Origin: Micromonospora olivasterospora
Lineage (GTDB): Bacteria; Actinomycetota; Actinomycetes; Mycobacteriales; Micromonosporaceae
DNA: 64,000 bases
Assembly: GCF_007830265.1 (NCBI RefSeq)
Contig: NZ_VLKE01000001.1
Coordinates: 2,480,001-2,544,000, forward strand
Direction: 5' to 3'
A program made the translations under genes and the position numbers. Shown here one piece after another: positions 8,522 through 33,834 of the stretch; the stretch's first letter is position 1, and each line of letters begins with the position of its first letter. Below the pieces are notes generated by a model. That model was not told the DNA's origin and searched no databases. It saw only the letters and a program-made list of their open reading frames with translations.

Positions 8522-9340
8522 GTGATCGAGGACGGGACGGGCCGCCGCGACGACCAGGCATTCGCCGAGTGGCTGGCCGGGCGTGCCGGCGCCGCGCTGA
8601 CGGCGCTGCGCGAGACGCAGGGCTTCGCCGACCCGGCGGCGCTCAAGGACGCCGGCGACAAGGTCTCCCACGACCTGATGACGACGGCGCTGGCCCGCTG
8701 GCGGCCGGCCGACGCGGTGCTCTCCGAGGAGCAGGCGGACAGCCGGCGGGCCTGGGCCGGCGGAAACAGGCCGGCCCGGCTCGACGCGGACCGGGTCTGG
8801 ATCATCGACCCCCTGGACGGCACCCGGGAGTTCTCCGAGTCCGGCCGCACCGACTGGGCGGTGCACGTGGCGCTCTGGCAGCGCTCCGCCGCGCCGGACG
8901 GTGCGCTGGTCGCCGGCGCGGTCGGCATGCCGGCCCGGACCACCCAGCACGGCGAGCCGCTGGTCCTCGGCACCCGGGAGCCCGCCGCGCCCCCGGTCGA
9001 CGGGCCGCTGCGGATCGCGGTCAGCCGCACCCGCCCGCCCGCGTTCGTCAGCGAGCTGGTCGCCGGGATCGGCGCCCGGGCGGTGCCGATGGGCTCGGCC
9101 GGAGTGAAGGTCTGCGCGGTGGTGACGGGCGAGGTCGACGCGTACGTGCACGCCGGGGGCCAGTACGAGTGGGACTCGGCCGCCCCGGTCGCGGTCGCCC
9201 TCGGCACCGGCATGCACGCCTCCCGGATCGACGGCTCGCCGCTGCGCTACAACCGGGACGACCCCCGCCTTCCGGACCTGTTGGTCTGCCGGCCGGAGCA
9301 CGCGGACACCCTACTGGCGGCCATTGACCGCTACCGTTGA
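8522..9340 (+). CDS. cysQ: 3'(2'),5'-bisphosphate nucleotidase CysQ (PAP phosphatase)
   Basis: 272-aa Mg2+-dependent phosphatase of the inositol-monophosphatase fold. It hydrolyses 3'-phosphoadenosine-5'-phosphate (PAP), the product left by PAPS-dependent sulfotransferases. Metal-site motifs are SEE (68-70), DPLDGT (96-101) and WDSAAP (Asp220). The GTG at 8522 is used; it keeps the family N-terminus. Three sulfotransferase genes follow within 14 kb, so placement at the head of the glycopolymer region makes functional sense (inference). Confidence 0.9.
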   Translation: MIEDGTGRRDDQAFAEWLAGRAGAALTALRETQGFADPAALKDAGDKVSHDLMTTALARWRPADAVLSEEQADSRRAWAGGNRPARLDADRVWIIDPLDGTREFSESGRTDWAVHVALWQRSAAPDGALVAGAVGMPARTTQHGEPLVLGTREPAAPPVDGPLRIAVSRTRPPAFVSELVAGIGARAVPMGSAGVKVCAVVTGEVDAYVHAGGQYEWDSAAPVAVALGTGMHASRIDGSPLRYNRDDPRLPDLLVCRPEHADTLLAAIDRYR

Positions 9341-9462
9341 CCCGCCGGTCCGGCGCCGCCGCCGCGCTGGCGCACCACGGCCGATGATCGGTCGTTGCAG
9401 TAGCAGAGCCCACCGGGTCGGTCCGACCGGCGGGCCTGACGCCGCCCGAGCCGAGGAGTGTC

Positions 9463-10599
9463 ATGAGTCCCGGCCCCACCGCCGCACCCACCAGCGCCCC
9501 CGCGCCGGCCGCCCCCGGCCCGTCCCCACGTCGCCGGTCGGGCCGCTGGTGGCTGCTGCCGGTGGCCGCCGGGGTGGTGGTGCTGAACGTCACCGTCGCC
9601 CTGGCCACCAACGGCGACCTGCCCGGCCAGCCGGCCCCGGTGGCCACCGACGCCAGCCACGACGCGGGCCTCGGCCCGGCGGCGCCGGGCGCCCGGCCGA
9701 CCCCGAGCGGGTCCCAGGGCTTCGGCAGCAACCCGAGCCCGTCCGTCTCGTCCAGCCCGAGCGCCAGCGGCGGCGCGTCGTCCGGCGGGTTCCCGGGTGG
9801 CCGCAACACCCTGCCGGGGGCCGGCATCCACCTGCTCGACGGGGAGAGCTTCGCGGCCGCGCTGGCCCGCTCCGACCGGGCGTACGGGCCGCTGCGCATG
9901 GTCCGGGTCTTCTACCCCGGCCTGCCGCCGACCTGGCGCGGCAGCCGCGCGGACGTCGCCGGCCGGACCGTGGTGGTCTCGTTCAAGGCCGCCCCGGCGG
10001 AGGTGGCGGCCGGGCGGCACGACTCCCGGCTGTCCGCCTGGTTCGCCTCGGTCCCCCGCGACCTGGACGTCTACTGGTCGTACTTCCACGAGCCGGAGGA
10101 CGACATCGCCCGGGGCGCGTACACGGCCGCCCAGTACCGGGCGGCGTGGCAGCGGCTCGCCCGCCTCGCCGACCAGGCCGGCAACGGCCGGCTGCGGTCC
10201 ACCCTGATCCTGATGTGCTGGACGCTGAACCCCCGCTCCGGGCGCACCTTCGAGCACTACTGGCCGGGCGGCGACGCCGTCGACGTGCTCGGCTGGGACT
10301 GCTACAACAGCGGCGGCAAGTACGGCCGCTACACCGCCCCCGAGCAGGTGTTCGGGCCGATGATCGCGAAGTCGCGGGCGCTGAGCAAGCCCTGGGGGCT
10401 CGCCGAGACCGGCAGCCTGCGGATCCCCGGGGACGCCGGCGCCGGGCGGGCCGCCTGGATCCGGGCGATGAGCCGGTACCTCGACGCCCAGCGCCCGCTG
10501 TGGGTGGCGTACTACGACTACCAGGTCCCGGACGGCGACTTCCGGCTCACCGACGCGCCGAGCCGGGAGGCGTGGCGGGCCTGGTGCGCCGCCGCCTGA
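9463..10599 (+). CDS. Membrane-anchored glycoside hydrolase-like protein (GH26-like)
   Basis: 378 aa with AGGAG before the ATG. It has a Pro-rich cytoplasmic leader, one transmembrane helix at about residues 30-49, a Ser/Pro/Gly linker to about 120, then a (beta/alpha)8-type domain. Two acidic residues sit where GH26-type enzymes carry theirs: Glu210 in YFHEPEDD after a beta strand (acid/base) and Glu315 in GLAETGS (nucleophile). A second such protein lies at 23833, flanking the other side of the polysaccharide genes, so both may trim or release the polymer. The substrate is unknown. Confidence 0.75.
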   Translation: MSPGPTAAPTSAPAPAAPGPSPRRRSGRWWLLPVAAGVVVLNVTVALATNGDLPGQPAPVATDASHDAGLGPAAPGARPTPSGSQGFGSNPSPSVSSSPSASGGASSGGFPGGRNTLPGAGIHLLDGESFAAALARSDRAYGPLRMVRVFYPGLPPTWRGSRADVAGRTVVVSFKAAPAEVAAGRHDSRLSAWFASVPRDLDVYWSYFHEPEDDIARGAYTAAQYRAAWQRLARLADQAGNGRLRSTLILMCWTLNPRSGRTFEHYWPGGDAVDVLGWDCYNSGGKYGRYTAPEQVFGPMIAKSRALSKPWGLAETGSLRIPGDAGAGRAAWIRAMSRYLDAQRPLWVAYYDYQVPDGDFRLTDAPSREAWRAWCAAA

Positions 10600-10602
10600 G
10601 GC

Positions 10603-11529
10603 TCAGATCCCCCGGCCGCGCTTGTGCAGCGTACGCAGGACGCGGTCGGGGTCGACGGCCCGGCTGGCCACGGCCAGGGCCAGGTACGCGCGCGGCTCCC
10701 GGGGGTTACGGGACAGCGTGCGCCGGGCCCACCGGACGGCCTCCCCCCGGTTGCCCAGCGCCGCCTGGGCGAAGGCGATCTGCCCGCTGACCCGCGCCTC
10801 GCCGTGCGGCACCGTGGCGAACTCCGGGTACCGGCCGAGCAGCCACTGCAACGCGGTCGAGATCGTCTCCCAGCGCTGCGCGAAGTACGACCGCTTGTGC
10901 CAGCGCACCGTCACGTACGGCTCGGCCAGGTTGACCAGCGGAGCGTGCCGGGCGGCCCGGAGCAGGAACTCGTAGTCCTCCGCGTAGCTGCCCGGGATCT
11001 CCTCGTCGACCAGCCCGATCCCGTCGAGCAGGGCGTCCCGCCGGATCAGGAAGGTGGACGGGTGCAGCTCGGTGTGCCGGTCCCGCAGCAGGGCGGCCAG
11101 CGGCACCCGGCTCACCGGCAGCACCCGGTCGACCTGGCGGCCGTCGTAGTCGACCCGGATGCCGCAGCTCACGAACGAGCCGTCGGGCGCGGCGTCGAGG
11201 GCGGCCACCTGCGCGGCGAGCTTGCCGGGCAGCCACTCGTCGTCGTCGTCGCAGAACGCCACCAGCTCGCCGGTCGCCGCCAGGATTCCCGTGTTGCGGG
11301 CGCCGGCCAGGCCCGGGGCGCGCTCGTTGACCAGGACGGTGACCCGGGGGTCGTCGGCCAGCGAGCGGTCCGGCTCGGACTGGTCGTAGACGACCACCAC
11401 GTCGACCGGGCCGGGGTGGTCCTGGCCGAGGATCGCGTCGAGGGCCTTGCGCAGCAGCTCCGGGCGGTCCCGGGTGGGGACCACCGCGGTCACCGACGGG
11501 GCGCCGGTGCTGGTCGTCGGCTCGGTCAT
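10603..11529 (-). CDS. Family 2 glycosyltransferase
   Basis: 308-aa GT-A glycosyltransferase. The N-terminal nucleotide-binding strand is SVTAVVPTRDRPELLRKAL, the APGLAGARNTG helix follows, and the metal-binding acidic cluster is FCDDDDEW (residues 92-99). A C-terminal helical part follows with no membrane span. It is the last gene of a four-gene minus-strand operon and its ATG overlaps the preceding stop as ATGA. It presumably adds a sugar to the lipid-linked repeat unit on the cytoplasmic side. Confidence 0.9.
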   Translation of the reverse strand: MTEPTTSTGAPSVTAVVPTRDRPELLRKALDAILGQDHPGPVDVVVVYDQSEPDRSLADDPRVTVLVNERAPGLAGARNTGILAATGELVAFCDDDDEWLPGKLAAQVAALDAAPDGSFVSCGIRVDYDGRQVDRVLPVSRVPLAALLRDRHTELHPSTFLIRRDALLDGIGLVDEEIPGSYAEDYEFLLRAARHAPLVNLAEPYVTVRWHKRSYFAQRWETISTALQWLLGRYPEFATVPHGEARVSGQIAFAQAALGNRGEAVRWARRTLSRNPREPRAYLALAVASRAVDPDRVLRTLHKRGRGI

Positions 11530-12482
11530 CGTGCCTCCGTGGAACCGGGCCGGCCGAGGCCGACGTATCCGTACCGCAGCCGCAGCGGCAGCGTCGCGGC
11601 GCTCACCACCGCCCGGCTGCGCGACGGCAGGGCCGTCCGCCAGGCGTCGTCCTGCCGCACCCGCAGCGGCCCCGAGTTGAACCGCAGCGGGTTCCCGGCG
11701 ATGCTGTGCGCCCTTCGCAGCGGTGGGGGCGACGGGTCCAGCACCCGCAGCGCGCCGGGGTCGTCGGCCAGGCCGGCGAAGCGGCGGACCCGGGCGACCG
11801 TGCCGCGCGGGTCGGCGGTGAAGTCCTCGTAGCGCAGCCGGACCACCGGGGCGCGGGTGGCGAGCAGGTGGAACGCCGCGTTCTGCGCCGTCCACAGCTT
11901 GCTCACGGTGACCGGGGAGAAGGTGGGCATGTACGCCTCGGCGTCGACCACCTCGGGCCGGCGCACCTGCTTCGCCCACGAGTACGCCACGGCCCGGCTG
12001 TCCCGGACCAGGTGCACCACCCGCAGGTCGAGGTCGTCCGCCCAGCGCAGGGCGAACGCCGTCGAGGCGTGCTTGCTGGAGTCGACGACGGTCTGCGCGC
12101 CGGTCACGGCCATCGCGGCGGCGTAGATCCGGGTGTAGAGGTCGGCGTACCGGCGCACCTGGTCGAGCTGCCCGGCCGACAGCTCGCCCCGGGCCAGCCG
12201 GGGGATGTGCCGGGTCCGGTCGACGGCGTCCTTCAGCGCGAGCACCTCGGCGCGGTCGACCGCCGACCAGCCGCCGAAGGCGTGCTCCCCGACCCGCTGC
12301 CAGAAGTCGCAGGCCGAGAAGCGCTCCCCGCAGCCGCACCGCTCGTCGCCGCCGAGCGCCCGCTCCCACAGGTGCACCACCTCGCCGACGGCGCAGACGT
12401 CGGGGTGCTGGGCCAGGACCAGTTCGAGCAGGGTGGAGCCGCTGCGGCCCAGCCCGCCCACGAACAGCACCCGGGCGCTCAC
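11526..12482 (-). CDS. Sulfotransferase family protein (copy 1)
   Basis: 318-aa PAPS-dependent sulfotransferase. The 5'-phosphosulfate loop is VGGLGRSGSTLL (residues 8-19) and the 3'-phosphate region is VHLVRDSRAVAYSW. A Cys-rich motif CGCGERFSACDFW (49-61) is shared with the sulfotransferase at 13753, marking the two as paralogues. The GTG at 12482 overlaps the previous stop (GTGA) and the gene's own stop overlaps the GT2 start (ATGA), so translation is probably coupled. The likely acceptor is a sugar of the neighbouring polymer (inference). Confidence 0.88.
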   Translation of the reverse strand: MSARVLFVGGLGRSGSTLLELVLAQHPDVCAVGEVVHLWERALGGDERCGCGERFSACDFWQRVGEHAFGGWSAVDRAEVLALKDAVDRTRHIPRLARGELSAGQLDQVRRYADLYTRIYAAAMAVTGAQTVVDSSKHASTAFALRWADDLDLRVVHLVRDSRAVAYSWAKQVRRPEVVDAEAYMPTFSPVTVSKLWTAQNAAFHLLATRAPVVRLRYEDFTADPRGTVARVRRFAGLADDPGALRVLDPSPPPLRRAHSIAGNPLRFNSGPLRVRQDDAWRTALPSRSRAVVSAATLPLRLRYGYVGLGRPGSTEAR

Positions 12483-13075
12483 CCCCACCACCGCCGCTGC
12501 CTCGGCACCCGCCGGCCACAGACCAGGTCCTCCACGATCCGGCCGACCGCCGTCGCGGCCGCCACCCGGGGGTCGGGCCGGTCCGGATCGGCGGTCAGGG
12601 CGTACGCCTGCGGGTCGGCGACGCCCTTGTCCAGCGCCTCGACCAGGTCCGCCTCCGACTCGACCAGCCGGACCATCCCGGCCGCGCCGAGCCGGCGCGC
12701 GAAGAGCTGCTGATGGTTGTCGACGTGCTCGTCGTGGGCCGGGTCCCGGGGCACCACGATCGGCAGGTGCTCGTGCCGGCGCGCCTCGGTGATGGTGGCC
12801 GGGCCGCCGTGACAGACCACGAGATCCGCCTCGGTCATCGCCCGCTGGAGCTCCTCGTGGGCCAGGAACGGCACCGCGTCGGGCAGCCGGGGGGCGCGGC
12901 TGCGCCCGTACTGGACGACGAGCCGGACCTCGGGGACGCTGCCCGCCAGGCCGGCGTGCCAGCGCTCCAGCCACTCGACGAGCCGGTCGAACCGGTGCAC
13001 GTCGGTGCCGACCATGGCGAGAACGGTGCGCTGCTCCGGCGAGGCCGCGCGCGGGCGGGGAATCGGCGGGGTCAC
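12479..13075 (-). CDS. Alg13-type glycosyltransferase subunit (catalytic half)
   Basis: 198 aa. It corresponds to the C-terminal, UDP-sugar-binding half of a GT28 enzyme: TVLAMVGTDVHRFDRLVEWL at the start of the fold and the donor-binding motif CHGGPATITEA near the middle. The membrane-facing half is encoded by the overlapping upstream gene (Alg14-type). Bacterial pairs of this kind (PssE/PssD, CpsG/CpsF) add the second sugar of capsule repeat units. The GTG overlaps the upstream stop as GTGA. Confidence 0.87.
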   Translation of the reverse strand: MTPPIPRPRAASPEQRTVLAMVGTDVHRFDRLVEWLERWHAGLAGSVPEVRLVVQYGRSRAPRLPDAVPFLAHEELQRAMTEADLVVCHGGPATITEARRHEHLPIVVPRDPAHDEHVDNHQQLFARRLGAAGMVRLVESEADLVEALDKGVADPQAYALTADPDRPDPRVAAATAVGRIVEDLVCGRRVPRQRRWWG

Positions 13076-13530
13076 AGAAGGTTTCCCACCACGGTCGACT
13101 TCGGGTACAGCCGGCGCTGCTCCTCCCACTGCACGAGCATCGCGGAGAGGAAGGGCCGGCACAGTCGGGCGGAGAGCGTCGGGGTGTCGATCCGGTCGTA
13201 CACCTCGATGTAGACGGTGGGGATGCGGCGCAGCCGGGCCACCACCACGAACGGGACGGCGACACCCGCCCCGGTGGTGACCACCGCGGCCACCTCCCGC
13301 CCGCGGAACACCCGGACCGCGAGCCAGAGGTTGCGCAGGAGGTTCTTCACGTTCCGGGTGGTCGGGTGGTGCGCCCAGACCACGTCCTCGCCGTCGAGCA
13401 GCGAGCGGGCGTCCGGGGTGTCGAAGGTGACCCAGGAGCGGGACCGGTCGCGGTACCACGGCTCGAGCGCCACCAGCTGGGCGAGATGCCCGCCGCTGGA
13501 GCCGACGAGCATCACTTCACCAGAATCCAC
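13072..13530 (-). CDS. Alg14-type glycosyltransferase subunit (membrane-anchor half)
   Basis: About 152 aa. VMLVGSSGGHLAQL is the Alg14/PssD signature; VTTGAGVAVPFVVVARL forms the membrane-associated region, and RRIPTVYIEVYDRIDTPTLS follows. It recruits the catalytic Alg13-like partner encoded directly downstream. Start choice: the GTG at 13530 has GGAGG 9 nt upstream; an in-frame GTG at 13560 would add ten residues. First gene of the four-gene minus-strand operon. Confidence 0.85.
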   Translation of the reverse strand: MDSGEVMLVGSSGGHLAQLVALEPWYRDRSRSWVTFDTPDARSLLDGEDVVWAHHPTTRNVKNLLRNLWLAVRVFRGREVAAVVTTGAGVAVPFVVVARLRRIPTVYIEVYDRIDTPTLSARLCRPFLSAMLVQWEEQRRLYPKSTVVGNLL

Positions 13531-13752
13531 GTCCACCCGCCTCCCACGGCCCCCGGTCACCGCCCCGACCGGTCACCGGGGACGGTCGAGCGACGCCGCC
13601 ACAATCTATCGACGCCCGACCGCGAACATAAATAGCTCTCCCCATCATCGGGACTGTCGGATGGTTGGCTGCGGACCCTTCCGCCAATCCCCGGCTCCGT
13701 CCGTCGCACCTAGACTGCCGCTGGAGATCGCAGCCGACGAGAGGGATCGCGC
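13531..13752. promoter_or_regulatory. Divergent promoter region between two glycopolymer operons
   Basis: 222 nt between the Alg14-type gene (minus) and a sulfotransferase gene (plus). It contains the only A/T-rich patch nearby (ACATAAATAG, 13628-13637), a candidate -10 for the minus-strand operon. TAGACT at 13712-13717 is a candidate -10 for the plus-strand gene, which has an AGAGGGA ribosome site before its ATG. Confidence 0.45.
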
Positions 13753-14733
13753 ATGACCGGCCAGGTGTCCGAGGCAGAGCAGGCCGGCGGCGAGTCGAGC
13801 ACCGCCCCCGTCACCGTCCTCTACGTCTGCGGCATGCCGCGCAGCGGGTCCACGCTGCTCGACCTGATGCTCGGCCAGTTCGTCGGGCACTGCGACGTCG
13901 GCGAGCTGTTCTACCTGTGGCAGTCCGGCGTCGAGCGGAACTTCCGGTGCGCCTGCGGGGAGCACTTCGACGCCTGCCCGTTCTGGGGCGAGGTCGGCCG
14001 GCGGGCGTACGGCGGGTGGTCGCGGATCGACGTGGCCGACGTACGGGCGCTGCAACGCCGGGTGGACGCGACGGCGCGACTGCCGCTGATCCTGAACCCC
14101 GGCCTGTCCCCGGCCTTCCGGCGCGACCTGGACCGCTACACCGAGCTGCTCAGCCGGCTCTACCGGGCGGTGGCGGAGGTGTCCGGGGCGCAGGTGGTGG
14201 TCGACTCGACCAAGCGCCCGTCGCTGGCGTACATCCTGGCCCGGGCCCCCGAGATCGACCTGCGGCTGGTGCACGTCCTGCGCGACCCGCGCGGGGTCGC
14301 GTACTCCTGGAGCCAGGTGGTCGAGCTGCCCGAGGGGACCTCGGCGAAGGGCCGGATGAACCAGCGCTCGGCGCGGCTGACCGCCCGGCGCTGGGTCACG
14401 GTCAACGCGATGGTTGCCGCCCTCGCCCGGTCGGGGGTGCCCAGGGTCGTCGTCCGGTACGAGGACCTGGTCCGCGACCCGCGCGGCGAGCTGGGCCGGA
14501 TCGCCGCGCTCACCGCCGACGTGACCGGCGTGGTGGACCCGCTCGCGTTCCTGCGGGACAACGAGTTCGAGCAGGCCGGCTCGCACGCGGTGGCCGGCGG
14601 GCGGATCCGGATGCGCACCGGCGCGATCAGCCTGTCGCTGGACGAGAAGTGGCGCCGCGAGTACGCCCCGGGCCGCCGCCGGCTGGTCGGCGCGATGACC
14701 TGGCCGCTGCGCCGCCGCTACGGCTACCGCTGA
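13753..14733 (+). CDS. Sulfotransferase family protein (copy 2)
   Basis: 326 aa. The phosphosulfate-binding loop is YVCGMPRSGSTLLDL (24-38), the 3'-phosphate segment is VLRDPRGVAYSWSQVV, and a Cys-rich CACGEHFDACPFW (66-78) sits in the same place as in copy 1 at 11526. The two are clearly homologous over their whole length, ending in the same basic tail (LRRRYGYR versus LRLRYGYV). The ATG follows AGAGGGA. It converges on the GT14 gene with 7 nt between stops. Confidence 0.88.
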   Translation: MTGQVSEAEQAGGESSTAPVTVLYVCGMPRSGSTLLDLMLGQFVGHCDVGELFYLWQSGVERNFRCACGEHFDACPFWGEVGRRAYGGWSRIDVADVRALQRRVDATARLPLILNPGLSPAFRRDLDRYTELLSRLYRAVAEVSGAQVVVDSTKRPSLAYILARAPEIDLRLVHVLRDPRGVAYSWSQVVELPEGTSAKGRMNQRSARLTARRWVTVNAMVAALARSGVPRVVVRYEDLVRDPRGELGRIAALTADVTGVVDPLAFLRDNEFEQAGSHAVAGGRIRMRTGAISLSLDEKWRREYAPGRRRLVGAMTWPLRRRYGYR

Positions 14734-14740
14734 CGGGCCC

Positions 14741-15673
14741 TCACCGTCCCGCGGCGGCGGCCAGGTGGGCGTCGAGCGTGTCGAGCAGCTCCGGGGCGGC
14801 CTCGTAGTCGAACTTGCGGGCGAAGTGCGCCCGGCTGGCCAGCGCGCGGGGCAGGTCCTCGGCGGTGAGCGACTTCGGGTGGTTGAAGGTGCTGTCGCGG
14901 AAGTCGAAGTAGCGCTTGCAGTCGGGCACCAGGTTGAACCGGTCCGTGCTGCACACGATGGTCTGGAAGACCGCCTCGACCGGGGACAGGCAGCGGCGGA
15001 AGTAGGCCACCACGTCGGGCCGCCGGTCGAAGTACTCCCGCAGGTAGGCCACCACGGGCCAGCTCAGCGACGAGAACGCCGACCCGCCGTGCAGCCGCAG
15101 GTCGGGCCCGAACGGGGTACGCGCCCGGCGGCCGACCGCCAGCCCGTACGACACGTGCACCCGGACCAGCGGCTGCACCCGGTTGACCGCCTGGATCGGG
15201 CGGAGCAGCCGCTTGCCGCGCGAGCTGAGCGGGAGCAGCCGGCGGTGCTGGAAGTGGTACCTGGAGTGGACCCGGCTGCGCGGCCAGTGGCTCTCCGGCC
15301 CGTATGCGTCCCAGTACTCCATGAACCCGTCCGCGCCCGAGCCGACCAGCTCCGCCTCACACTGCCCGAGCGGCCGGATCGGGTAGTCCTGTCCGGTGAT
15401 GTTCACCAGCCAGTCGACCCGTACGCCCTCGGCGTTCAGCCAGTCCACTGCCGCCATGTAGCGGTCCACGTGGCTGAAGTCACCGTAGCCGCCCTCATGT
15501 GTCTGAATCACGACATCCGGCAGGGAACGCAGCTCGGTGAGGTCCAACGGCGTGCCGTTGACGTCGTGGCTGATGTGGACGACGCAGCCAGGGCTGTACC
15601 GCTTGACCGCGTGGACCAGCCGGTTCACCTGCTCGGGGGACCGGTGGCTCTGGATGTGGTAGCAAAACCGCAC
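14741..15673 (-). CDS. GT14-type (core-2/I-branching) N-acetylglucosaminyltransferase-like protein
   Basis: 310 aa. The start MRFCYHIQSHRSPEQVNRLV, the VNITGQDYPIRPLGQCEAEL block and the SAFSSLSWPVVAYL and SPVEAVFQTIV segments are typical of bacterial beta-1,6-N-acetylglucosaminyltransferase-like (GT14) proteins. There is no transmembrane anchor, unlike eukaryotic members. It is single in its orientation and divergent from the Wzz operon. It probably adds a branch or side-chain sugar; donor and acceptor are unknown. Confidence 0.82.
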   Translation of the reverse strand: MRFCYHIQSHRSPEQVNRLVHAVKRYSPGCVVHISHDVNGTPLDLTELRSLPDVVIQTHEGGYGDFSHVDRYMAAVDWLNAEGVRVDWLVNITGQDYPIRPLGQCEAELVGSGADGFMEYWDAYGPESHWPRSRVHSRYHFQHRRLLPLSSRGKRLLRPIQAVNRVQPLVRVHVSYGLAVGRRARTPFGPDLRLHGGSAFSSLSWPVVAYLREYFDRRPDVVAYFRRCLSPVEAVFQTIVCSTDRFNLVPDCKRYFDFRDSTFNHPKSLTAEDLPRALASRAHFARKFDYEAAPELLDTLDAHLAAAAGR

Positions 15674-15726
15674 CCGCCCATCCTGCCCGGCCGGGGAAAC
15701 GGTGAGAACCCGGCTGCCGGACCGGT

Positions 15727-15753
15727 GGGAAGCGGACCTTTCGTCCGCTTCCC
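15727..15753. promoter_or_regulatory. Strong hairpin/operator in the divergent GT14-wzz region
   Basis: GGGAAGCGGAC-CTTTC-GTCCGCTTCCC: perfect 11-bp arms with a 5-nt spacer, flanked by further partly matching CCGGT/ACCGG. It lies 54 nt from the GT14 start and 96 nt upstream of the wzz-like start, with no gene end nearby. It is therefore more likely an operator or leader structure controlling the operon than a terminator. Confidence 0.6.
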
Positions 15754-15848
15754 CTGACCGGGCGGATCAGGGAGACTCAAGTTTCCGCCGTGGTGAACTG
15801 GTCCACGGCCGACTGGACGGTCCGGTCCAAAGGGAGCGACACAGCCCG

Positions 15849-17687
15849 ATGCCCTCGCCTCACCACGCCGATCTGCGCGACTCAGACGGTCCCACGCTGA
15901 TGGCCTACCTCGAGTGGCTCCGCCGCCGGTGGTGGATCCTCGCGGTGGCCGCGCTGCTCGGCGCGGGCGCCGGCCTGCTGGTCAGCCAGGTGCAGACCCG
16001 CACCTACGTCTCGACCACGTCCCTGCTGGTCCGCCAGGTCGGCCCGGACGCCAACCCGGGCACCAAGGTCAACCTCGACACCGAGGCGCAGGTGGTCCGC
16101 TCCCTGGTGGTCGCCGAACGGGCCGAGGCCCTGCTGAAGAGCGGCACCTCGACCGAGGACCTGGTCCGCTCCCTGTCGGTCACCGTGCCGCCGAACAGCC
16201 AGGTGCTGCAGATCGTGTACGAGGCGGAGAGCCCGCAGGCGGCGCAGGCCGGGTCGCACGCGTTCGCCCAGGCGTACCTGGACCTGCGGCTGGCGACCGC
16301 CACCCGCTCGGTGGAGAACGAGACGACCGCGCTCAGGCAGCAGATCGCCGAGACCAACAAGCAGCTCGCCGCCGTGGCGGGCAAGATCGCCGGCACCCCC
16401 GCCAACTCCGTCGAGCGGGCGCGGGCAGAGGCCGACCGGAACGTGCTGACCAACCAGCTCGCCAGCCTCAACAGCAGGCTGAGTCCGCTGCTGAGCACCG
16501 CGCTGGACCCGGGCGAGATCATTTCGGACGCCGCGCTGCCCCGGAAGCCCAGCTCGCCGAACACCACCCTGAACCTGGCCTCCGGGATCGGCGCCGGACT
16601 GCTGTTCGGCATCGTCGTCGCCCTGGTGCTGGACCGGCTGGACACCCGCGTCCGGCGCGGCCGGGACGTCTCCGACCGGCTCGGCCTGCCGATGCTGCTG
16701 GAGCTGCCGGCCCGCCCGGCCGACCTGACCATCCTCCCGGCGGCCCACGCGGTCTCCCGGGAGCTGGGCCGGCTGCGCAACGTGCTGCTGTCCACCCTTC
16801 CCGAGCCGCGGCCCGGGAAGGGCCGGCTGCTGCTGCTCACCGACACCTCCCCCGGGCCGGCGGCCGGCTTCGTGGTCGGCAACCTCGCCGCCGCGTACGC
16901 CCGCACGGGCGCGCAGGTCGCGGTCGTGACCACCAAGCCGGACTCCCCGCTGGGCGCGATGCTGGGCAACCCGAAGCCCCGGCACACCCTCGCCGACGTG
17001 CTGCGCCACGACGTCTCGGCGCTCACCGCGCTCACCCCGGCCCCCAGCCTGAGCCAGCTGCGGGTACTGCTCCCCGGCGCCCTCGACACCGAGGTGGAGC
17101 TGCCGGTCGCCACCATGCTGGAGGTCCTCGGCCAGTTGGCCGCCCGCTTCGACCACGTCCTGATCGAGACGGCCCAGCCGACCGCCGCCGTGGAGGCGCA
17201 GGCACTGGCCCGGCACGTCGACGGGGTGATCCTGGTGATCGAGGGCGGGCAGACCCGGAGCAGCGAGATCACCACCGCCATGCACCAGTTCGAGCAGGTC
17301 GACGCGCCGGTGCTCGGCTCGGTGCTGGCTCCCCGGCTGCCCGCCCCGGCCCCCGGCGCCCCGGCGGCGCGGCGCGAGGGCCCGCCGTCGCCCCGGCCGC
17401 GGCCCGCGCCGAACGGCCGACCCCAGTCCGGCGCGCCGAACATCGAGACCACCATGATCCTGCCCCGCCCCGCCGCCGGCACGCGCGAGGCCGGCCCGGC
17501 TTCGGCCCCCCGCCCCACGGCACCGACCGCAGGCTCCGCCCCGACCGGCCACGTCACCGCACCGGTCGCCGGAAAGCCGACGAACCAGCCGAAGGCGGGG
17601 GGCGTGTACCGCTCCGTGCGGGACACCGACGGCAGGGAGCCCGGCCGGTACTCGATGAGCCGCGACGCGTTCGAGGACCGGGAGTGA
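15849..17687 (+). CDS. Wzz/BY-kinase-like polysaccharide co-polymerase with degenerate nucleotide-binding site
   Basis: 612 aa. Wzz-type topology: transmembrane helix 1 at about 29-48, an extracytoplasmic coiled-coil region, transmembrane helix 2 at about 245-262, then a cytoplasmic BY-kinase-like domain. The Walker A region reads TDTSPGPAAGFVVGNLA (331-347), where active kinases have a GxGKST pattern, so the Lys and Ser/Thr are missing. The Walker B-like FDHVLIETAQP has Glu in place of Asp. The Pro/Ala-rich tail holds only two Tyr near the end. It is likely a chain-length regulator without ATP-dependent autophosphorylation. First gene of a six-gene overlapping operon. Confidence 0.85.
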   Translation: MPSPHHADLRDSDGPTLMAYLEWLRRRWWILAVAALLGAGAGLLVSQVQTRTYVSTTSLLVRQVGPDANPGTKVNLDTEAQVVRSLVVAERAEALLKSGTSTEDLVRSLSVTVPPNSQVLQIVYEAESPQAAQAGSHAFAQAYLDLRLATATRSVENETTALRQQIAETNKQLAAVAGKIAGTPANSVERARAEADRNVLTNQLASLNSRLSPLLSTALDPGEIISDAALPRKPSSPNTTLNLASGIGAGLLFGIVVALVLDRLDTRVRRGRDVSDRLGLPMLLELPARPADLTILPAAHAVSRELGRLRNVLLSTLPEPRPGKGRLLLLTDTSPGPAAGFVVGNLAAAYARTGAQVAVVTTKPDSPLGAMLGNPKPRHTLADVLRHDVSALTALTPAPSLSQLRVLLPGALDTEVELPVATMLEVLGQLAARFDHVLIETAQPTAAVEAQALARHVDGVILVIEGGQTRSSEITTAMHQFEQVDAPVLGSVLAPRLPAPAPGAPAARREGPPSPRPRPAPNGRPQSGAPNIETTMILPRPAAGTREAGPASAPRPTAPTAGSAPTGHVTAPVAGKPTNQPKAGGVYRSVRDTDGREPGRYSMSRDAFEDRE

Positions 17688-18676
17688 ACCGCCGGCGGGC
17701 CCTGGGAGCGACGGTGGTCGCGGTGCTCGTCGCCGTGGCCGGGGCAGGCTGCACGGAGGGGCAGCCGCCCGGGGCGACGAACCTGGTCGACCCCGGCTCC
17801 CCGGCGCCCCAGCCCAACCCCACCCCCATTCTGCCCCCGGCCCCCCTGTCCGGGAAGCCCGTAGCCGAGACGGTTGCCAGCCGCCAGGCGGTCGTCGTGC
17901 CGGTACGGGTGACCGCCCGGACCACGCCCGTCGGGCTGGCTGAGGCCGACCTCGTCTACCAGGAGTTCGCCGAGTCGGAGAGCCTGCACCTGACCGCCGT
18001 CTACCAGTCCCAGGACGCCGCCCGGGTGGGGCCGGTGGCCGAGATCCGCCCGGTCGACATCCGCACGGTCGGCGTGCTGCACCCGTTCATCGGGTACACC
18101 GGCGGGCCGACCGGCTTCCTCGACCAGCTCGCCGCGGCCGGGCTGCCGGGGGCGACCCCGGCGCGACGCAAGGCCGCGTTCCCGTCCGGCCAGGCGTCCA
18201 CCGCCGCGCTGCGGCAGGCCGCCCCGACCGGCGGCGTGGCGCCGACGCCGGTCTTCGACCACGCCGACTCGGGCACGCCCCTGGCCAGCCAGGGCGTCAC
18301 CCCGGCCAGCCGGCTCACCGTCGCCGCTCCGGGCCACCCGACGCAGACGTGGACGTACGACGCCGCCAGCTCGACGTGGCGCGGGAAGATCGGCAAGACG
18401 ACCGTGAGCACCGCGTCCGTGGTGGTGCTCACGACGGAGTACCGCACCCTGAACGTCCGCAAGCCCAGCCCGCGCTCGCTGCCGGGGGCCAAGGTCTACG
18501 GCTCCGGCACGGCCGTGGTCGTGTCCGGCCCGTCCAGCGTGTCCGCGACGTGGCGCAAGCCGGGGCAGCGGCTGGTCTGCAACGTCATCGACCCGGGCGG
18601 CTACCAGGTGCGGCTGCAGCCCGGAACGGCCTGGGTGATCTACGCCCCCGAGACCGCCCGGGTCAACGTGGCATGA
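17684..18676 (+). CDS. DUF3048 (YerB-like) lipoprotein
   Basis: 330 aa. The GTG overlaps the wzz stop as GTGA. It has a lipoprotein signal with lipobox VAGAGC (Cys23) and a Pro-rich linker, then the two DUF3048 lobes: VGLAEADLVYQEFAESE..RVGPVAEIRPVDIR and a C-terminal beta domain (NVIDPGGYQVRLQPGTAWVI). It is exported and membrane-anchored. The function of the family is unknown; finding it inside a Wzx/Wzy operon suggests a role in polymer handling outside the membrane (inference). Confidence 0.88.
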   Translation: MNRRRALGATVVAVLVAVAGAGCTEGQPPGATNLVDPGSPAPQPNPTPILPPAPLSGKPVAETVASRQAVVVPVRVTARTTPVGLAEADLVYQEFAESESLHLTAVYQSQDAARVGPVAEIRPVDIRTVGVLHPFIGYTGGPTGFLDQLAAAGLPGATPARRKAAFPSGQASTAALRQAAPTGGVAPTPVFDHADSGTPLASQGVTPASRLTVAAPGHPTQTWTYDAASSTWRGKIGKTTVSTASVVVLTTEYRTLNVRKPSPRSLPGAKVYGSGTAVVVSGPSSVSATWRKPGQRLVCNVIDPGGYQVRLQPGTAWVIYAPETARVNVA

Positions 18677-23763: not shown

Positions 23764-23832
23764 GGTTCGTTCACGGAACACGTCCACCACCGGCCGTTGT
23801 CGGTGGCCATCAGCACGGGGAGGTACGCAACG

Positions 23833-24867
23833 ATGAGGCGGGTCCGCACGATGGCCCTCGCGCTCGGTTCGGCGCTGGCCGTGGCCGGGTGTTCCGAGCC
23901 GGCCCCGGCACCGCCGCCGGCCGCGGCCAGCTCCGCGCCGCCGGCGGTGAGCCCCCGCCCGGCGGGCGGCCTGAGCACCACCGGCCGTGGCCCGGACCTG
24001 CCCGAGCGGGGCGCCTGGCTGGGCGCCTGGGTGAAGGCGGACTGGCAGACCCCGGACGGCCGGGTCGACGCGCTGGACGCCTTCGCCGAGCAGACCGGCG
24101 GCACGATCACGCTGGCGCACATGTTCCACGAGTGGGGGGACGACTTCCCCGGCCCGACGGAGCACGCGTTCCAGGCCAGCGGACGGCTACAGATGATTTC
24201 CTGGTCCGGCGCCGACACCCGGTCCATCCGCGACGGTGTGTACGACCAGCTGATCCGGCAGCGGGCCGAGAAGATCAAGCAGTTCGGGGTCCCGCTGCTG
24301 TTGCGCTGGCGCTGGGAGATGGACCGGCCCAACCTGGCCCAGAGCGTCCACTCGCCGGAGGACTACGTCGCGGCGTGGAAGCGCATCAGGGGCATCTTCA
24401 CCGAGGTCGGCGCCACCAACGCGGCCTTCGTGTGGTGCCCCCACGTCCAGGGTTTCGTCAACAGCACGCGCAACGCGGCGGCGTACTACCCGGGCGACGA
24501 CCAGGTCGACTGGCTCTGCACCGACGTGTACCCGGGGCGGGAGTTCGAGGGCTTCGCCGCGCAGATGGACACGTTCATGGCGTTCGCCGCGAAGCGGCCC
24601 CGGCCGGTGGTGATCGGCGAGTTCGGCGTCACCACCGAGGGCGCTCCCGGCCAGCGCGGCGGGTGGCTGCGCGAGGCCGGCGAGTACGTCAAACGGCACC
24701 CGCAGATCAAGGCCGTGGTCTACTTCGCGGCCAAGCAGACGAAGAAGCCCGCGTACGACAGCACCTTCGACGCCGACCCGGAGGGGCTGGCGGCGTTCCG
24801 GGAGCTGGCCGCCGACCCGTGGTTCGCGGCACCGCCCCCGCCGGTTCCGCCGCTCGGCCCGCGGTGA
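23833..24867 (+). CDS. GH26-like glycosidase lipoprotein
   Basis: 344 aa. The ATG at 23833 is preceded by GGGGAGG. Lipoprotein signal with lipobox AVAGC (Cys20), then a Pro/Ala-rich linker and a (beta/alpha)8 domain. Catalytic candidates are Glu162 in LLRWRWEMDRPN (acid/base) and Glu263 in VVIGEFGVTTEG (nucleophile), the arrangement of GH26 beta-mannanase-like enzymes. It is anchored outside the membrane right after the flippase gene, so it may cut the exported polymer. Full length, unlike a fragment. Confidence 0.83.
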   Translation: MRRVRTMALALGSALAVAGCSEPAPAPPPAAASSAPPAVSPRPAGGLSTTGRGPDLPERGAWLGAWVKADWQTPDGRVDALDAFAEQTGGTITLAHMFHEWGDDFPGPTEHAFQASGRLQMISWSGADTRSIRDGVYDQLIRQRAEKIKQFGVPLLLRWRWEMDRPNLAQSVHSPEDYVAAWKRIRGIFTEVGATNAAFVWCPHVQGFVNSTRNAAAYYPGDDQVDWLCTDVYPGREFEGFAAQMDTFMAFAAKRPRPVVIGEFGVTTEGAPGQRGGWLREAGEYVKRHPQIKAVVYFAAKQTKKPAYDSTFDADPEGLAAFRELAADPWFAAPPPPVPPLGPR

Positions 24868-25116
24868 GACCCGGGCGCGCCGGCCGGACGGCCGGTGTCC
24901 CCGTCCGATCGCCCGAGCCCGGGCCGTCCGACCTCCGGGAGGATGTACGGACACAAGGGAGTCGGCGGGGTGGACACCGCGCGTAGACTGCGACGTGGTT
25001 TCCTGACACTCGTGTCCCCGGCCGCACGCCTCCGCGGCCGGCGGTCAGCCGACCGGTTCGCCTCCGGTCGCTGAAGGCATTCCACATCGTTCTCCGTCGT
25101 CTCTCCGGAGTTGTCC
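24868..25116. other. Intergenic leader, 249 bp
   Basis: Between the GH26-like lipoprotein and the secreted propeller gene. TAGACT at 24984-24989 is a possible -10 box, giving a leader of about 120 nt with CCGCACGCCTCCGCGG-type self-complementary stretches. I do not recognise a known riboswitch. Confidence 0.35.
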
Positions 25117-27147
25117 GTGGTCCATTCTCCCGTGCTCCGCCGCCGGCCTCTCACGGCTCTGACCTGCGCCGCGCTCACCGTCACAGGCGTCCTCGCCGCC
25201 ACCCCGACGTCGGCCGCCCCCGGGCACACCACCGTGGTCGCCGCAGCCCCCTCCGCCCTCACCCCGGACATCGTCGACGGCACCGTCTTCGCCATCCACG
25301 ACGCCGGCAGCAAGGTGATCGTCGGCGGTTCGTTCACCGGCGCGCGGAACCGGAACTCGACCGTCACGATCGCCCGCAAGTACGTGCTGGCCTTCGACAA
25401 GGCCACCGGCGCGGTGGACACCGCGTTCGCCCCGCAGGTCGACGGCGAGGTCCTCGACATCGTCGCCGGCCCCACCGCCGGGACGGTCTACCTCGCCGGC
25501 AAGTTCAACACCGTCGGCACCACCAGCCGCCGCAAGCTCGCCCTGCTCAACGTGAGCAACGGCAGCCTCGTCACCAGCTTCCCCAACGTGGCGTTCGACG
25601 GCCTGATCAACGACGTCGAGAAGGTGGGCAGCCGGCTGCTGGTGGGTGGCATCTTCACCAAGACCGGCACGCTCACGCGCAACGGGCTGGCCTCGCTGAA
25701 CGCCTCCACCGGCGTGGTGGACAGCTACCTCACCGCCAGCCTGACCGAGAACCACAACTACCGTCCCACGGAGACCGGCGGCGCGAAGGCCGGCGTCGGG
25801 GCCGAGAAGCTGGCCGTCTCACCCGACGGCACCCAGCTCGTGGTGATCGGCAACTTCAAGAAGGCCGACGGGGCGCCGCACGACCAGATCGTCCGGCTCA
25901 CCCTCGGCAGCACCGCGGCGACCGTCTCCACCTGGAACACCACTCGCTACCAGGACCGGTGCAAGTGGACAATGTTCGACTCGTACGTGCGGGACGTGAG
26001 CTTCTCCCCCGACGGGAAGTACTTCGTGGTCGCCAACACCGGCGGACCGTACGCCGGGACACTCTGCGACGCGGTGGCCCGCTGGGAGACCTCGTCCACC
26101 GGCAGCACGGTCCAACCCACCTGGATCAACTACAGCGGCGGCGACACGTTCCTCTCCGTCGGCATCACCGAGCGGGCCGTCTACGTCGGCGGCCACTTCC
26201 GCTGGCTGAACAACACCGGCGCCAGCAACTCGGCGTACCCCGGCGCGGTGGCCCGCCCCAGCATCGCCGCGCTCGACCCGCTCAACGGCCTGCCGCTGTC
26301 CTGGAACCCGGGCCGGCACCCGCGCGGGTACGGCGTGGCCGAGCTGCTGGTCACCCCGGCCGGCCTCTGGCTCGGCTCGGACCAGCCCTGGATCGGCAAC
26401 TTCAAGTACCGCCGCGAGCGGATCGCGTTCTTCCCGCTGACCGGCGGTGCCACCCCGCACTCCACGACCACGGCCGCCCTGCCGGGCAACGTCTACCTCG
26501 CCGGGTTCAGCTACGGAACGGTCGACGCGGTGCGCACCCGGACGTACGACGGGGTGGGCGCGGTGGGCGCCGCCGCGACGGTCACCAGCACCGACGGCAC
26601 CGCCTGGTCGACCGTCCGGGGCGGCTTCTGGGTCGGCGGCACGCTGTTCTACGGGATGAACGGCGCGCTGTGGCGACGCACCTTCAACGGCACCACCTTC
26701 GGCACGGCGACGAAGGTCGACCCGTACCACGACGCGCTCTGGGACACCGTGGTGACCGGCTCCGGGCCGTCGGGGCAGACGTACGCGGGGTCGACGGTCA
26801 GCTTCTACCCGGAGATCGCGAACGTGACCGGCATGTTCTACAGCAACGGCCGGCTCTACTACACGCTCAGCGGCTCCAGCGCCCTGTACTGGCGCTGGTT
26901 CAGCCCGGACAGCGGCACGGTCGGGGCGGACAGGTTCACCGTCGCCGGCTCGACCGGCTTCGCCGACTCCGCCGGGGTGTTCGTCTCGGGCTCCAGCCTC
27001 TACCTGGTCAACCGCCTCACCGGCAACCTCTCGTCGACCGGCTGGGTCAACGGGGCGCCGTCGGGCACCTGGACGGTGCGCAGCGGCCCGGCGCTCGACT
27101 CGGTCGACTGGCGGGCCAAGGCGATCTTCACCGGTCCCGCACTCTGA
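25117..27147 (+). CDS. Secreted beta-propeller-like protein (delta-60-repeat type)
   Basis: 676 aa. The GTG at 25117 has CCGGAG 7 nt upstream; a TTG at 25111 is too close to that site. Sec signal peptide ending around TPTSAAPG. The N-terminal two thirds are repeats of about 45-60 residues with the pattern VIVGGSFTG../VYLAGKFNTVG../LLVGGIFTKTG../VYVGGHFRWLNN, each followed by LALLNVSNG-type segments, as in delta-60 propeller repeats. The C-terminal third has further beta segments with no enzyme motif. It is extracellular and could bind a surface polymer. Followed by a terminator. Confidence 0.75.
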   Translation: MVHSPVLRRRPLTALTCAALTVTGVLAATPTSAAPGHTTVVAAAPSALTPDIVDGTVFAIHDAGSKVIVGGSFTGARNRNSTVTIARKYVLAFDKATGAVDTAFAPQVDGEVLDIVAGPTAGTVYLAGKFNTVGTTSRRKLALLNVSNGSLVTSFPNVAFDGLINDVEKVGSRLLVGGIFTKTGTLTRNGLASLNASTGVVDSYLTASLTENHNYRPTETGGAKAGVGAEKLAVSPDGTQLVVIGNFKKADGAPHDQIVRLTLGSTAATVSTWNTTRYQDRCKWTMFDSYVRDVSFSPDGKYFVVANTGGPYAGTLCDAVARWETSSTGSTVQPTWINYSGGDTFLSVGITERAVYVGGHFRWLNNTGASNSAYPGAVARPSIAALDPLNGLPLSWNPGRHPRGYGVAELLVTPAGLWLGSDQPWIGNFKYRRERIAFFPLTGGATPHSTTTAALPGNVYLAGFSYGTVDAVRTRTYDGVGAVGAAATVTSTDGTAWSTVRGGFWVGGTLFYGMNGALWRRTFNGTTFGTATKVDPYHDALWDTVVTGSGPSGQTYAGSTVSFYPEIANVTGMFYSNGRLYYTLSGSSALYWRWFSPDSGTVGADRFTVAGSTGFADSAGVFVSGSSLYLVNRLTGNLSSTGWVNGAPSGTWTVRSGPALDSVDWRAKAIFTGPAL

Positions 27148-27160: not shown

Positions 27161-27191
27161 TGGCCCGGCCCCCCGCGCGGGGGCCGGGCCA
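27161..27191 (+). terminator. Hairpin terminator after the secreted propeller gene
   Basis: TGGCCCGGCCCCC-CGCGC-GGGGGCCGGGCCA, perfect 13-bp arms, begins 14 nt after the stop codon. There is no U-run, as usual in high-GC actinobacteria. Confidence 0.8.
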
Positions 27192-27299
27192 TCGCCTTCC
27201 CGGCCGAACGCCGGGCGGGCCACCGGTTGACGGCGGGCCCGATCTTCCGCGGCGCTATCCTCCACCGGTGACCCAGAGTCGTACGAGGGAGGACTCAGC

Positions 27300-29786: not shown

Positions 29787-29854
29787 CCCCGCGCCCCGCG
29801 CAGGGGCCGCAGAGAACGCGCGCGGGAGCATCCGCGAAGAGCAGAGACGGTCGG

Positions 29855-31120: not shown

Positions 31121-31132
31121 GGGCAGAAAGGC

Positions 31133-31138
31133 TACCGT
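31133..31138 (+). promoter_or_regulatory. Leaderless-type -10 box TACCGT
   Basis: TANNNT hexamer ending 6 nt before the ATG of the Fpg-type gene; transcription would begin at or next to the start codon, which also lacks a ribosome site. Confidence 0.5.
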
Positions 31139-31144
31139 GGGCTG

Positions 31145-32005: not shown

Positions 32006-32256
32006 GTAACGCCACTCGGGGACTACCGAGCGGAATGACCCATCGCGTGCCGATCATCCCGCTCGACGCCTCTACCCCGACCCTCATCCATCGGTATAGT
32101 GGCTCGGTCCCCGGCTTTCGCACCTGAGGTGGAGCCGGCCGGATCCCAGCGGCTACACGGGCCCCCGTCCCTCGGGTCGGCGTCCGGTGCGGGTTCCGCG
32201 TGGGAAACTGAACGGTGGGCGACCCGGGCCCTCACTGCGAGTGAGCGGCACGCGTC
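32006..32256 (+). promoter_or_regulatory. Promoter region of the polyprenyl-P sugar transferase gene
   Basis: 251 nt without a gene. TATAGT at 32095-32100 is the best -10-like hexamer nearby, implying a leader of about 150 nt. CTCACTGCGAGTGAG at 32229-32243 forms a small perfect stem (CTCACT/AGTGAG) shortly before the start codon. No recognised riboswitch. Confidence 0.4.
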
Positions 32257-33834
32257 ATGCGGGAGGACATGGGTGAGGTGACGACAAGCCTCCAGCGCCC
32301 GGTAACCAACACAGGCCGGAGCAAACACGTGCGGCACGTCGACAGCTTCGAGATCCAGCCGCCGACACCGCCGTCGCACAACGGCGTACCCCGGTCGGCC
32401 TGGGCTCGCGCCCGCCGACGCGTCTCCCGCTGGCACCGTCCCTACACCGCGGCCCTGCTGCTGCTCGACTCGGGCGCGGCGGCGTTGGCCAGCTTCCTGG
32501 CCATCCAGATCTTCCAGCAGGCGGCGTCGGGCTTCAGCAGCGCACACGAGTCGTGGTTCTACACGGTCGCGTTCGTCCTGCTCCCGCTCGGCTGGTTGAT
32601 CATCCTGTGGGGCAACCGGGCGTACGACCGGCGATACCTCGGCCTCGGGCCGGACGAGTTCAAACGGGTGATCCGGGGCGGGGTGGCCGTCGCCGCCACC
32701 GTCTCCTTCATCGCGTTCGCCCTCAAGGCCGACCTCTCCCGGTGGACGGTCGGCTTCGCGCTGCTCGGCGCGCTGCTGCTGATCCTGCTCGGGCGGATGC
32801 TGGCGCGGCTGACCCTGCACCTGATCCGCCGCCGGGCCGGCCAGGCCGGGCACCGGATGGTCCTCGTGGGCACCCTGCCGGAGTGCCTGGAGGTCTACGC
32901 GGCGGTCACCCGCAACCCGAGCGCCGGGCTGGTGCCGGTGGCCATCCACATCACCGACGGGTACGCGGCGGCCCGCGGCATGGACACCCCCGTTCCCGTG
33001 TACGCGGGCCGGGACGTGCTCGCCCTCGTCCGCGAGGTCGGCGGCGACACGATCGCGGTCTGCGGCTCGGCCAGCGCCGAGCCGGGCGAGTTGCGCCGGC
33101 TGGCCTGGCAACTGGAGGGCTCCGGCGTCGACCTGGTGGTCGCCCCGCAGCTCACGGACATCGCCGGCCCCCGGGTGCACATCCGCCCGATCGAGGGCCT
33201 GCCGCTGCTGCACGTCGAGGAGCCGACCCTGTCGGGCCCGGCGCTGCTGGCCAAGAACCTGATGGACCGGGTCGCCGCCGGCCTCGGCCTGGTGCTGCTG
33301 ATCCCGGTGTTCGTCGCGATCGCCGTTGCCATCCGGCTCTCCGACCGCGGCCCGGTCTTCTTCCGCCAGCCCCGCGTCGGCCACGAGGGGCGCACCTTCC
33401 GGGTGTGGAAGTTCCGCACCATGTACGTCGACGCCGAGGATCGGCTGGCCAGCCTGGTCGACCAGAACGAGACCGACGGCATGCTGTTCAAGATGAAGCA
33501 GGACCCGCGGGTCTTCCCGGTGGGCCGCTTCCTGCGGGCCTCCTCGCTCGACGAGCTGCCCCAGCTGATCAACGTGCTCAAGGGCGAGATGTCCCTGGTC
33601 GGGCCGCGCCCGCTGCCGGCCGACGACGGCGACTTCCTCGGCGACGTGCGCCGCCGGCTCCTGGTCCGGCCCGGCATGACCGGCCTGTGGCAGGTCTCCG
33701 GCCGCTCCGACCTGTCCTGGGACGAGGCGGTCCGGCTGGACCTCTACTACGTCGACAACTGGTCGCTCGCGTACGACCTGAGCATCCTGTGGCGCACGGT
33801 GGGCGTGGTGCTGGCCCGCAAGGGCGCGTACTAG
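32257..33834 (+). CDS. Exopolysaccharide polyprenyl glycosylphosphotransferase (initiating sugar transferase)
   Basis: About 525 aa, WbaP/CpsE type. Four N-terminal transmembrane helices, a Rossmann-like cytosolic region (HRMVLVGTLPECLEVYAAVT), a fifth helix (AAGLGLVLLIPVFVAIAVAI), then the catalytic sugar-transferase domain with KFRTMYVDAEDRL, SLVGPRPLPADD and RPGMTGLWQVSGRSDLSW. It attaches the first sugar-1-phosphate to undecaprenyl phosphate, starting repeat-unit synthesis. The start is uncertain: ATG 32257, ATG 32269 or GTG 32278; GGGAGG lies at 32261-32266 and best serves the last. Confidence 0.92.
   Translation: MREDMGEVTTSLQRPVTNTGRSKHVRHVDSFEIQPPTPPSHNGVPRSAWARARRRVSRWHRPYTAALLLLDSGAAALASFLAIQIFQQAASGFSSAHESWFYTVAFVLLPLGWLIILWGNRAYDRRYLGLGPDEFKRVIRGGVAVAATVSFIAFALKADLSRWTVGFALLGALLLILLGRMLARLTLHLIRRRAGQAGHRMVLVGTLPECLEVYAAVTRNPSAGLVPVAIHITDGYAAARGMDTPVPVYAGRDVLALVREVGGDTIAVCGSASAEPGELRRLAWQLEGSGVDLVVAPQLTDIAGPRVHIRPIEGLPLLHVEEPTLSGPALLAKNLMDRVAAGLGLVLLIPVFVAIAVAIRLSDRGPVFFRQPRVGHEGRTFRVWKFRTMYVDAEDRLASLVDQNETDGMLFKMKQDPRVFPVGRFLRASSLDELPQLINVLKGEMSLVGPRPLPADDGDFLGDVRRRLLVRPGMTGLWQVSGRSDLSWDEAVRLDLYYVDNWSLAYDLSILWRTVGVVLARKGAY

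Follow-up and report, generated by a model that had tools for sequence, protein, structure and literature searches.

The window analyzed here, a 64,000-nucleotide stretch of the Micromonospora olivasterospora chromosome (contig NZ_VLKE01000001.1, positions 2,480,001 to 2,544,000), carries a gene island of 18.6 kb, which at window positions 8,522-27,147 probably encodes a Wzx/Wzy pathway for a sulfated glycopolymer and is a variant of the wps-1 kind. Judged from the genes, there is a good case for a sulfated Wzy glycopolymer, most likely one of the spore or hyphal surface. Carbohydrate sulfotransferases use 3′-phosphoadenosine 5′-phosphosulfate (PAPS) and release 3′-phosphoadenosine 5′-phosphate (PAP), which CysQ degrades. 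The original prediction, made from the DNA alone, named a CysQ gene at 8522 and three sulfotransferase genes, and their matches to Inositol_P, PDB entry 5djf, and PF13469 bear this out. The suggestion that the system is wholly new has not survived: a paper of June 2026 describes the related wps-1 cluster (AMIS_7280-7380) of Actinoplanes missouriensis, which, according to the parts of that paper used here, is predicted to make a sulfated polysaccharide and is needed for normal sporangia (PMC13390465). The locus is related to this just-published cluster, and its new content is the link to PAPS supply and disposal.

The three sulfotransferases are ST1 (11526..12482, minus strand), ST2 (13753..14733, plus strand), and ST3 (21380..22240, plus strand). 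Each passes PF13469 (cut-off 27 bits) with 62.8 (trimmed frame), 55.4, and 49.5 bits, respectively, and each has kept both PAPS-binding loops, the feature whose loss would have spoken against the prediction. The frame of ST1 is open to 13265 but is most likely over-long, the gene itself running from 12482 to 11526; its loops read GGLGRSGST and VRDSRAVAYS. In ST2, which is 91% identical to a Micromonospora okii protein, the loop residues are invariant in an alignment of 39 sequences, and the AlphaFold2 model (predicted local distance difference test score 90.6) has a sulfotransferase fold in a VIA-align comparison. ST3 is heparan-sulfate-sulfotransferase-like, with 51.0 bits to PF00685 and E values of 3.4e-25 to 3rnl and 2e-16 to human 3-OST-5. 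All three enzymes are thus in the locus as predicted, but they are not all that the genome has: the idea that every sulfotransferase lies in the locus holds for PF13469 (3/3 inside) and was rejected when PF00685 found a fourth outside.

Most of the locus lies in two overlapping operons. Six plus-strand genes at 15702-23763 overlap end to end in the order Wzz-DUF3048-Wzy-kinase-ST3-Wzx, confirming the overlapping Wzz/Wzy/Wzx operon that had been proposed. They encode a Wzz chain-length regulator (15702..17687; PF02706 26.6 bits, cut-off 25.5), a DUF3048 lipoprotein-like protein (17684..18676; PF11258 47.6 bits, PF17479 39.2 bits), a Wzy polymerase-like membrane protein (18673..20154), a kinase-like protein (20154..21383), ST3, and a Wzx flippase (22210..23763; PF01554 [MatE] 61.4 bits and PF13440 [Polysacc_synt_3] 28.1 bits, both above cut-off). 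The Wzy-like protein scores 31.0 bits with PF04932 (Wzy_C) on its long frame, just below the cut-off of 31.7, and the place of its gene beside Wzz and Wzx is conserved across loci. The kinase-like protein, which corresponds in position to WpsI and is its likely homologue, gave no Pfam match above cut-off and no solved relative; its relatives occur in 96 of 121 Micromonosporaceae genomes. The second overlapping operon, on the minus strand, is GT2-ST1-Alg13-Alg14, in which ST1 is accompanied by a GT2 glycosyltransferase (10603..11529; PF00535 78.5 bits; start chosen among alternatives) and by the Alg13-like (12479..13075; PF04101 59.2 bits) and Alg14-like (13072..13560; PF08660 40.8 bits) halves of a two-part glycosyltransferase. 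The locus as a whole has not one but three blocks of transcription, namely CysQ with the 9463 gene (plus), GT2-ST1-Alg13-Alg14 (minus), and ST2 with Wzz to Wzx (plus). To these is added a minus-strand gene for a putative glycosyltransferase (14741..15673), conserved next to ST2 in eight named Micromonospora loci (L007-L014); its product gave no significant Pfam or NCBIfam match, and we take it to resemble GT14 and branching enzymes.

Taken together, these genes suggest a pathway. A priming transferase encoded in the flank at 32257 would load the first sugar onto a polyprenyl carrier, and GT2, the Alg13/14 pair, and the 14741 product would extend the repeat. ST1, ST2, and ST3 would move sulfate from PAPS onto the repeat in the cytoplasm. 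Wzx would flip the repeat, Wzy would polymerize it, with Wzz setting the length, and the GH26-like proteins may trim or remodel the polymer outside. The PAPS source would be a chromosomal fusion of sulfate adenylyltransferase and adenosine 5′-phosphosulfate (APS) kinase, Sat-CysC, and leftover PAP would be destroyed by the island CysQ and by the CysQ beside cysDN.

The polymer might be real and the sulfotransferases nevertheless modify another target, such as a protein, a lipid, or a co-secreted small molecule. The top fold matches of the ST2 model are protein-tyrosine sulfotransferases, and in sequence ST1 and ST2 resemble solved sulfotransferases only weakly, the ones matched not being carbohydrate-specific. 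However, ST3 matches heparan-sulfate sulfotransferases in sequence and stands inside the overlapping Wzy-Wzx operon, and the ST1 gene overlaps a glycosyltransferase gene at either end, an arrangement kept across genera. Another target is, in our judgment, unlikely.

Related loci give a view of which parts of the island are constant. The order aminotransferase (AT)-CysQ-9463-GT2-ST1-Alg13-Alg14-ST2-GT14-Wzz is kept in 8/8 of the loci L007-L014, the 9463 gene included, and so goes beyond chance; these loci were found with ST2 as the query. Micromonospora okii, M. haikouensis, and M. rubida are among the species that carry the island. All eight have ST2 and the 14741 gene, but this is how they were found, and both genes are missing from five of six further Micromonospora island loci fetched and present in one. 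The idea of a fixed cassette of ST2 and the 14741 gene found no support, as L089 has a relative of the 14741 gene and no ST2 match at its place. Among 20 stretches from 18 sister-genus genomes (L080-L099), all of the genomes show the order Wzy-kinase-ST3-Wzx, and Wzz stands on the far side of Wzy in each stretch that extends so far. ST1 adjoins GT2 in 17 of these 18 genomes (the G156 stretch ends earlier), and Sat-CysC lies inside 11 of the 20 stretches. A tree of ST3 (34 rows) places the window protein within a wps-1-like group of 25 rows (support 92/99) and, inside it, in a subgroup with the ST3 of the CysQ-linked locus of genus g30 (99/100). Because the g30 genome with this locus also has a Sat-CysC-linked one, the window locus type is a sister lineage and not a strict orthologue.

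Within Micromonospora, the 121 genomes divide into 28 with the island ST3, 89 with another ST3 (42-46% identity), one with a fragmentary match, and three with neither. No genome has both, compared with about 21 expected under simple independence, a figure that ignores kinship. The sites of the island and of the more distant locus types differ. Eleven loci with the 42-46% ST3 were looked at: nine are of a type B, and two have another arrangement. Type B shows one sulfotransferase and runs, in line, propeller, Wzy, Wzx, ST3, kinase, Alg14, Alg13, GT2, with Wzz or GH26 unmatched in some. In these loci (L060-L065, L067, L071, and L072), GT2, Alg13, and Alg14 are 51-82% identical to those of the island, compared with 42-46% for ST3 and 36-39% for the kinase. 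This pattern suggests an exchange of parts. Relatives of ST1, GT2, Alg13, and Alg14 occur in other orders in loci of Jiangellales and Nocardioides (L015 and L026), so the kind extends beyond Micromonosporaceae.

This variation bears on whether all three sulfotransferases work. One or more of them could be inactive or condition-dependent, the Wzy glycopolymer then carrying sulfate at one position at most; the absence of ST2 from five of the six further island loci, the single sulfotransferase of type B, and the mild effect of wpsB deletion in the parts of the wps-1 paper used here (PMC13390465) are in line with this. The loops of all three enzymes are nevertheless intact, with those of ST2 invariant over the 39 sequences, and we give this reading a low probability.

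As for the supply of sulfate, the observation that no PAPS synthesis gene lies in the window stands, but synthesis is present outside it. The sole APS kinase match in the 7.07-Mb genome is Sat-CysC, a 513-residue fusion at C1:1583748-1585286 (apsK domain 175.3 bits, cut-off 138.7), 0.9 Mb from the island; in Micromonospora this distance is 0.8-0.9 Mb. Sat-CysC was found in 121/121 Micromonospora and 120/121 Micromonosporaceae genomes sampled. Among 80 Micromonosporaceae genomes outside Micromonospora, 60, from 22 of 29 genera, have it no more than 20 kb from the kinase-like gene; the two genes share a contig in 70 of the 80, and in ten of these 70 they are unlinked (g4, g11, g13, g14, and g23). 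CysQ lies within 20 kb of that gene in 8/80, from four genera. Both Sat-CysC and CysQ are locus-linked in four genera, at one locus each in g12, g35, and g40 and across two loci in g30. The linkage set comprises strong kinase matches, leaving out 11 of 96 kinase-match genomes weaker than E 4.4e-50, and the split Sat-CysC pieces in G150, G208, and G175 were joined into a single coordinate span. Linkage and co-occurrence are given throughout as raw counts, with kinship among genomes ignored and no shuffled control. A Sat-CysC dedicated to the locus was rejected for Micromonospora, where the gene is universal and is unlinked in the three island genomes that have the two genes on a single contig. 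The Micromonospora genome G032 has no PF00685 sulfotransferase match and has kept Sat-CysC; the Sat-CysC matches of G032, G044, and G111 each contain a single in-frame TAG.

The second CysQ gene of the genome starts a cysQ-cysD-cysN operon. The CysH of the genome has CC...CxxC cysteines, a pattern that we take to be typical of APS reductases. It scores 223.3 bits with the APS and 180.3 bits with the PAPS reductase model, both below their cut-offs, and passes the general cysH models. The operon and the CysH cysteines suggest that cysteine may be made straight from APS, so that PAPS stays available for sulfation.

The island CysQ (8522..9340, plus strand) is a predicted PAP phosphatase, with 93.5 bits to PF00459 (Inositol_P) and 231.6 bits over residues 10-268 to 5djf, a 3′-phosphoadenosine 5′-phosphate phosphatase. 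It misses the cut-off of TIGR01331, the NCBIfam CysQ equivalog (87.9 vs 228.8 bits), and the statement that it would work like a CysQ has stronger support than membership of that family. None of the 121 Micromonospora genomes sampled is without a CysQ match. Of these genomes, 26 have the island type (78-100% identity) and 28 the island ST3 (76-100%), with both in 25, so that the co-occurrence of cysQ with the operon in related genomes, proposed originally as a check, is found in 25/28 island genomes. In 24 of these 25 pairs, CysQ and ST3 lie 10.6-12.2 kb apart on one contig; in G023, they are on two contigs. ST3 occurs without the island CysQ in G009, G010, and G014 (assemblies of 380-890 contigs) and CysQ without ST3 in G111. 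A second CysQ, about 63-69% identical, is present in at least 25 of the 26 genomes with the island type, among the matches listed (the other matches of G011 ranked lower). A 35-row tree joins the island copies to the locus-linked g30 copy (98/99) and, with less firm support, to that of g40 (94/88), and keeps them apart from the cysDN-type copies of Micromonospora; the copies linked to the locus in g12, g35, and Nonomuraea have other places in the tree. From the co-occurrence and these groupings, CysQ has traveled along with this locus lineage, and linkage to the locus has arisen more than once. The island CysQ is best described as a dedicated paralogue, co-inherited with the locus. A chance position at the island edge and a role in general metabolism, with the link to PAP clearing a coincidence, are quite improbable for this CysQ, even though its gene is the outermost one, in a separate transcription unit adjoining the flank, survives alone in G111, and is near the kinase gene in only 8/80 other-genus genomes: 25 of 26 genomes with the island-type CysQ have the island, the tree sets the protein with the locus-linked g30 and g40 copies, and CysQ recurs within the loci homologous to the island in Nonomuraea antri, g12, and g35, though with copies from elsewhere in the tree.

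The predicted sulfated-glycopolymer locus, with its dedicated PAP phosphatase, can be compared with known systems. The published description of wps-1, in the parts used here, has GT2, two sulfotransferases of two families, GH26, Wzx, a kinase-like protein, Wzy, and Wzz in common with the island; its gene order is that of the sister-genus loci L080-L099, with AMIS_7390 at the end, and this sulfate adenylyltransferase/APS kinase gene is next door, as in the 60/80 sister-genus genomes. Measured against the same description, the window locus adds CysQ, a third sulfotransferase with the 14741 gene, the Alg13/14 pair, and DUF3048; no WecG/TagA (WpsC), methyltransferase (WpsF), or DUF4262 protein (WpsD) was seen in it, and its Sat-CysC is unlinked. 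Normal sporangia require the whole wps-1 cluster and most of its genes taken singly; they are damaged by deletion of wpsH, wpsI, wpsJ, wpsK, wpsG, wpsA, wpsC, or AMIS_7390; the effect is severe for wpsH (ST3-like) and for AMIS_7390, the latter termed "unexpectedly" damaging (PMC13390465). AMIS_7390 is not co-activated with the cluster that it neighbors, and the account of its deletion, in the passages used, mentions neither PAPS nor cysQ (PMC13390465). From its linkage and enzyme type, we infer that AMIS_7390 supplies PAPS, which would give a simple account of the sporangium defect.

Micromonospora, in difference from Actinoplanes missouriensis, forms single spores and not sporangia. No paper on a sulfated Micromonospora polymer was found in the literature, among the matches listed. 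Two other systems have sulfate shown chemically. The xss cluster for synechan in Synechocystis PCC 6803 is likewise of the Wzx/Wzy type with two sulfotransferases, but it is cyanobacterial, with another gene set and regulators, and PAPS and cysQ are unmentioned in the passages searched (PMC8205485). The capsule locus of Cobetia marina KMM 1449, with sulfate established by nuclear magnetic resonance, resembles the present system in having a sulfotransferase, cysQ, and PAPS-synthesis genes among polysaccharide genes; in the parts of that paper used here, it differs in being Gram-negative, with an ATP-binding cassette transporter, and in having cysD and cysN/cysC with no Sat-CysC fusion (PMC11766843).

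The limits of the island follow from genomes that do not have it. In 14/14 such Micromonospora genomes fetched (11 with the more distant ST3, three without any ST3 match), the aminotransferase and nucleoside triphosphate (NTP)-transferase genes lie 0.65-2.4 kb apart, and none of the island genes, CysQ included, was matched between them. In G111 (L079 2992-3795), the flanking genes enclose the island CysQ and no other island gene, which looks like the outcome of a deletion of the rest of the island. Because of the empty sites and G111, the edges were set at CysQ on the left and, on the right, at a secreted beta-propeller (DUF5122; 25111..27147, plus strand; PF17164 39.1 bits) with relatives also in type-B loci. 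The original prediction treated 8522..33834 as a single locus. Its part up to 27,147 stands; the remainder was rejected, as the block at 27300-32005 (NTP transferase, glycerol-1-phosphate-dehydrogenase-like protein, CDP-alcohol transferase, GT4, and Fpg-like protein) is also present at the empty sites, with the first three genes alone matched at that of G012 (L103). The initiating sugar transferase was correctly identified as a priming polyprenyl-phosphate sugar transferase (32257..33834, plus strand; PF02397 228.8 bits; TIGR03025 404.3 bits, cut-off 295.55), but it does not belong to the island, standing beside the flank block at island-less sites as well (L079, L107, and L113). The downstream block with this gene is best regarded as ordinary chromosome outside the island. 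The enzyme may still serve the island pathway, since several sister-genus loci and that of Nonomuraea antri place a priming transferase beside CysQ.

The remaining island genes encode a GH26-family protein and a weakly GH26-like one. The product of 9463..10599 (plus strand), membrane-anchored or secreted, is weakly GH26-like: it has no Pfam match, and its best PDB match is GH26 endoglucanase H (E 0.017). The GH26-family protein at 23797..24867 (plus strand) scores 20.4 bits with PF02156 (cut-off 20.2) and matches the same endoglucanase with E 5e-20. In the flank, the cassette at 27300-29786 (NTP transferase, glycerol-1-phosphate-dehydrogenase-like protein [249.6 bits, cut-off 413], and CDP-alcohol transferase) occurs with and without the island and possibly encodes a glycerol-1-phosphate or unusual phospholipid head-group pathway. 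A histidine kinase gene (33868-35091) directly follows the priming transferase, and an Rfam scan of the window gave nothing at gathering scores.

Sulfated polysaccharides are thought to be rare in bacteria; chemical proof comes from cyanobacteria and some marine bacteria, and for actinomycetes there has been a gene-based prediction in one species. It is possible, though we advance it tentatively, that a sulfated glycopolymer covers the spores or hyphae of almost every member of the Micromonosporaceae, that the locus forms a self-contained PAPS economy, holding Sat-CysC in most genera and the PAP phosphatase in Micromonospora and a few others, and that the Micromonospora types are alternative surface types. 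Removing Sat-CysC or the island CysQ should lower sulfation and leave sugar assembly untouched. Through the comparison, what was a single actinomycete case becomes a pattern across the family, with a PAPS supply chain that can be tested.

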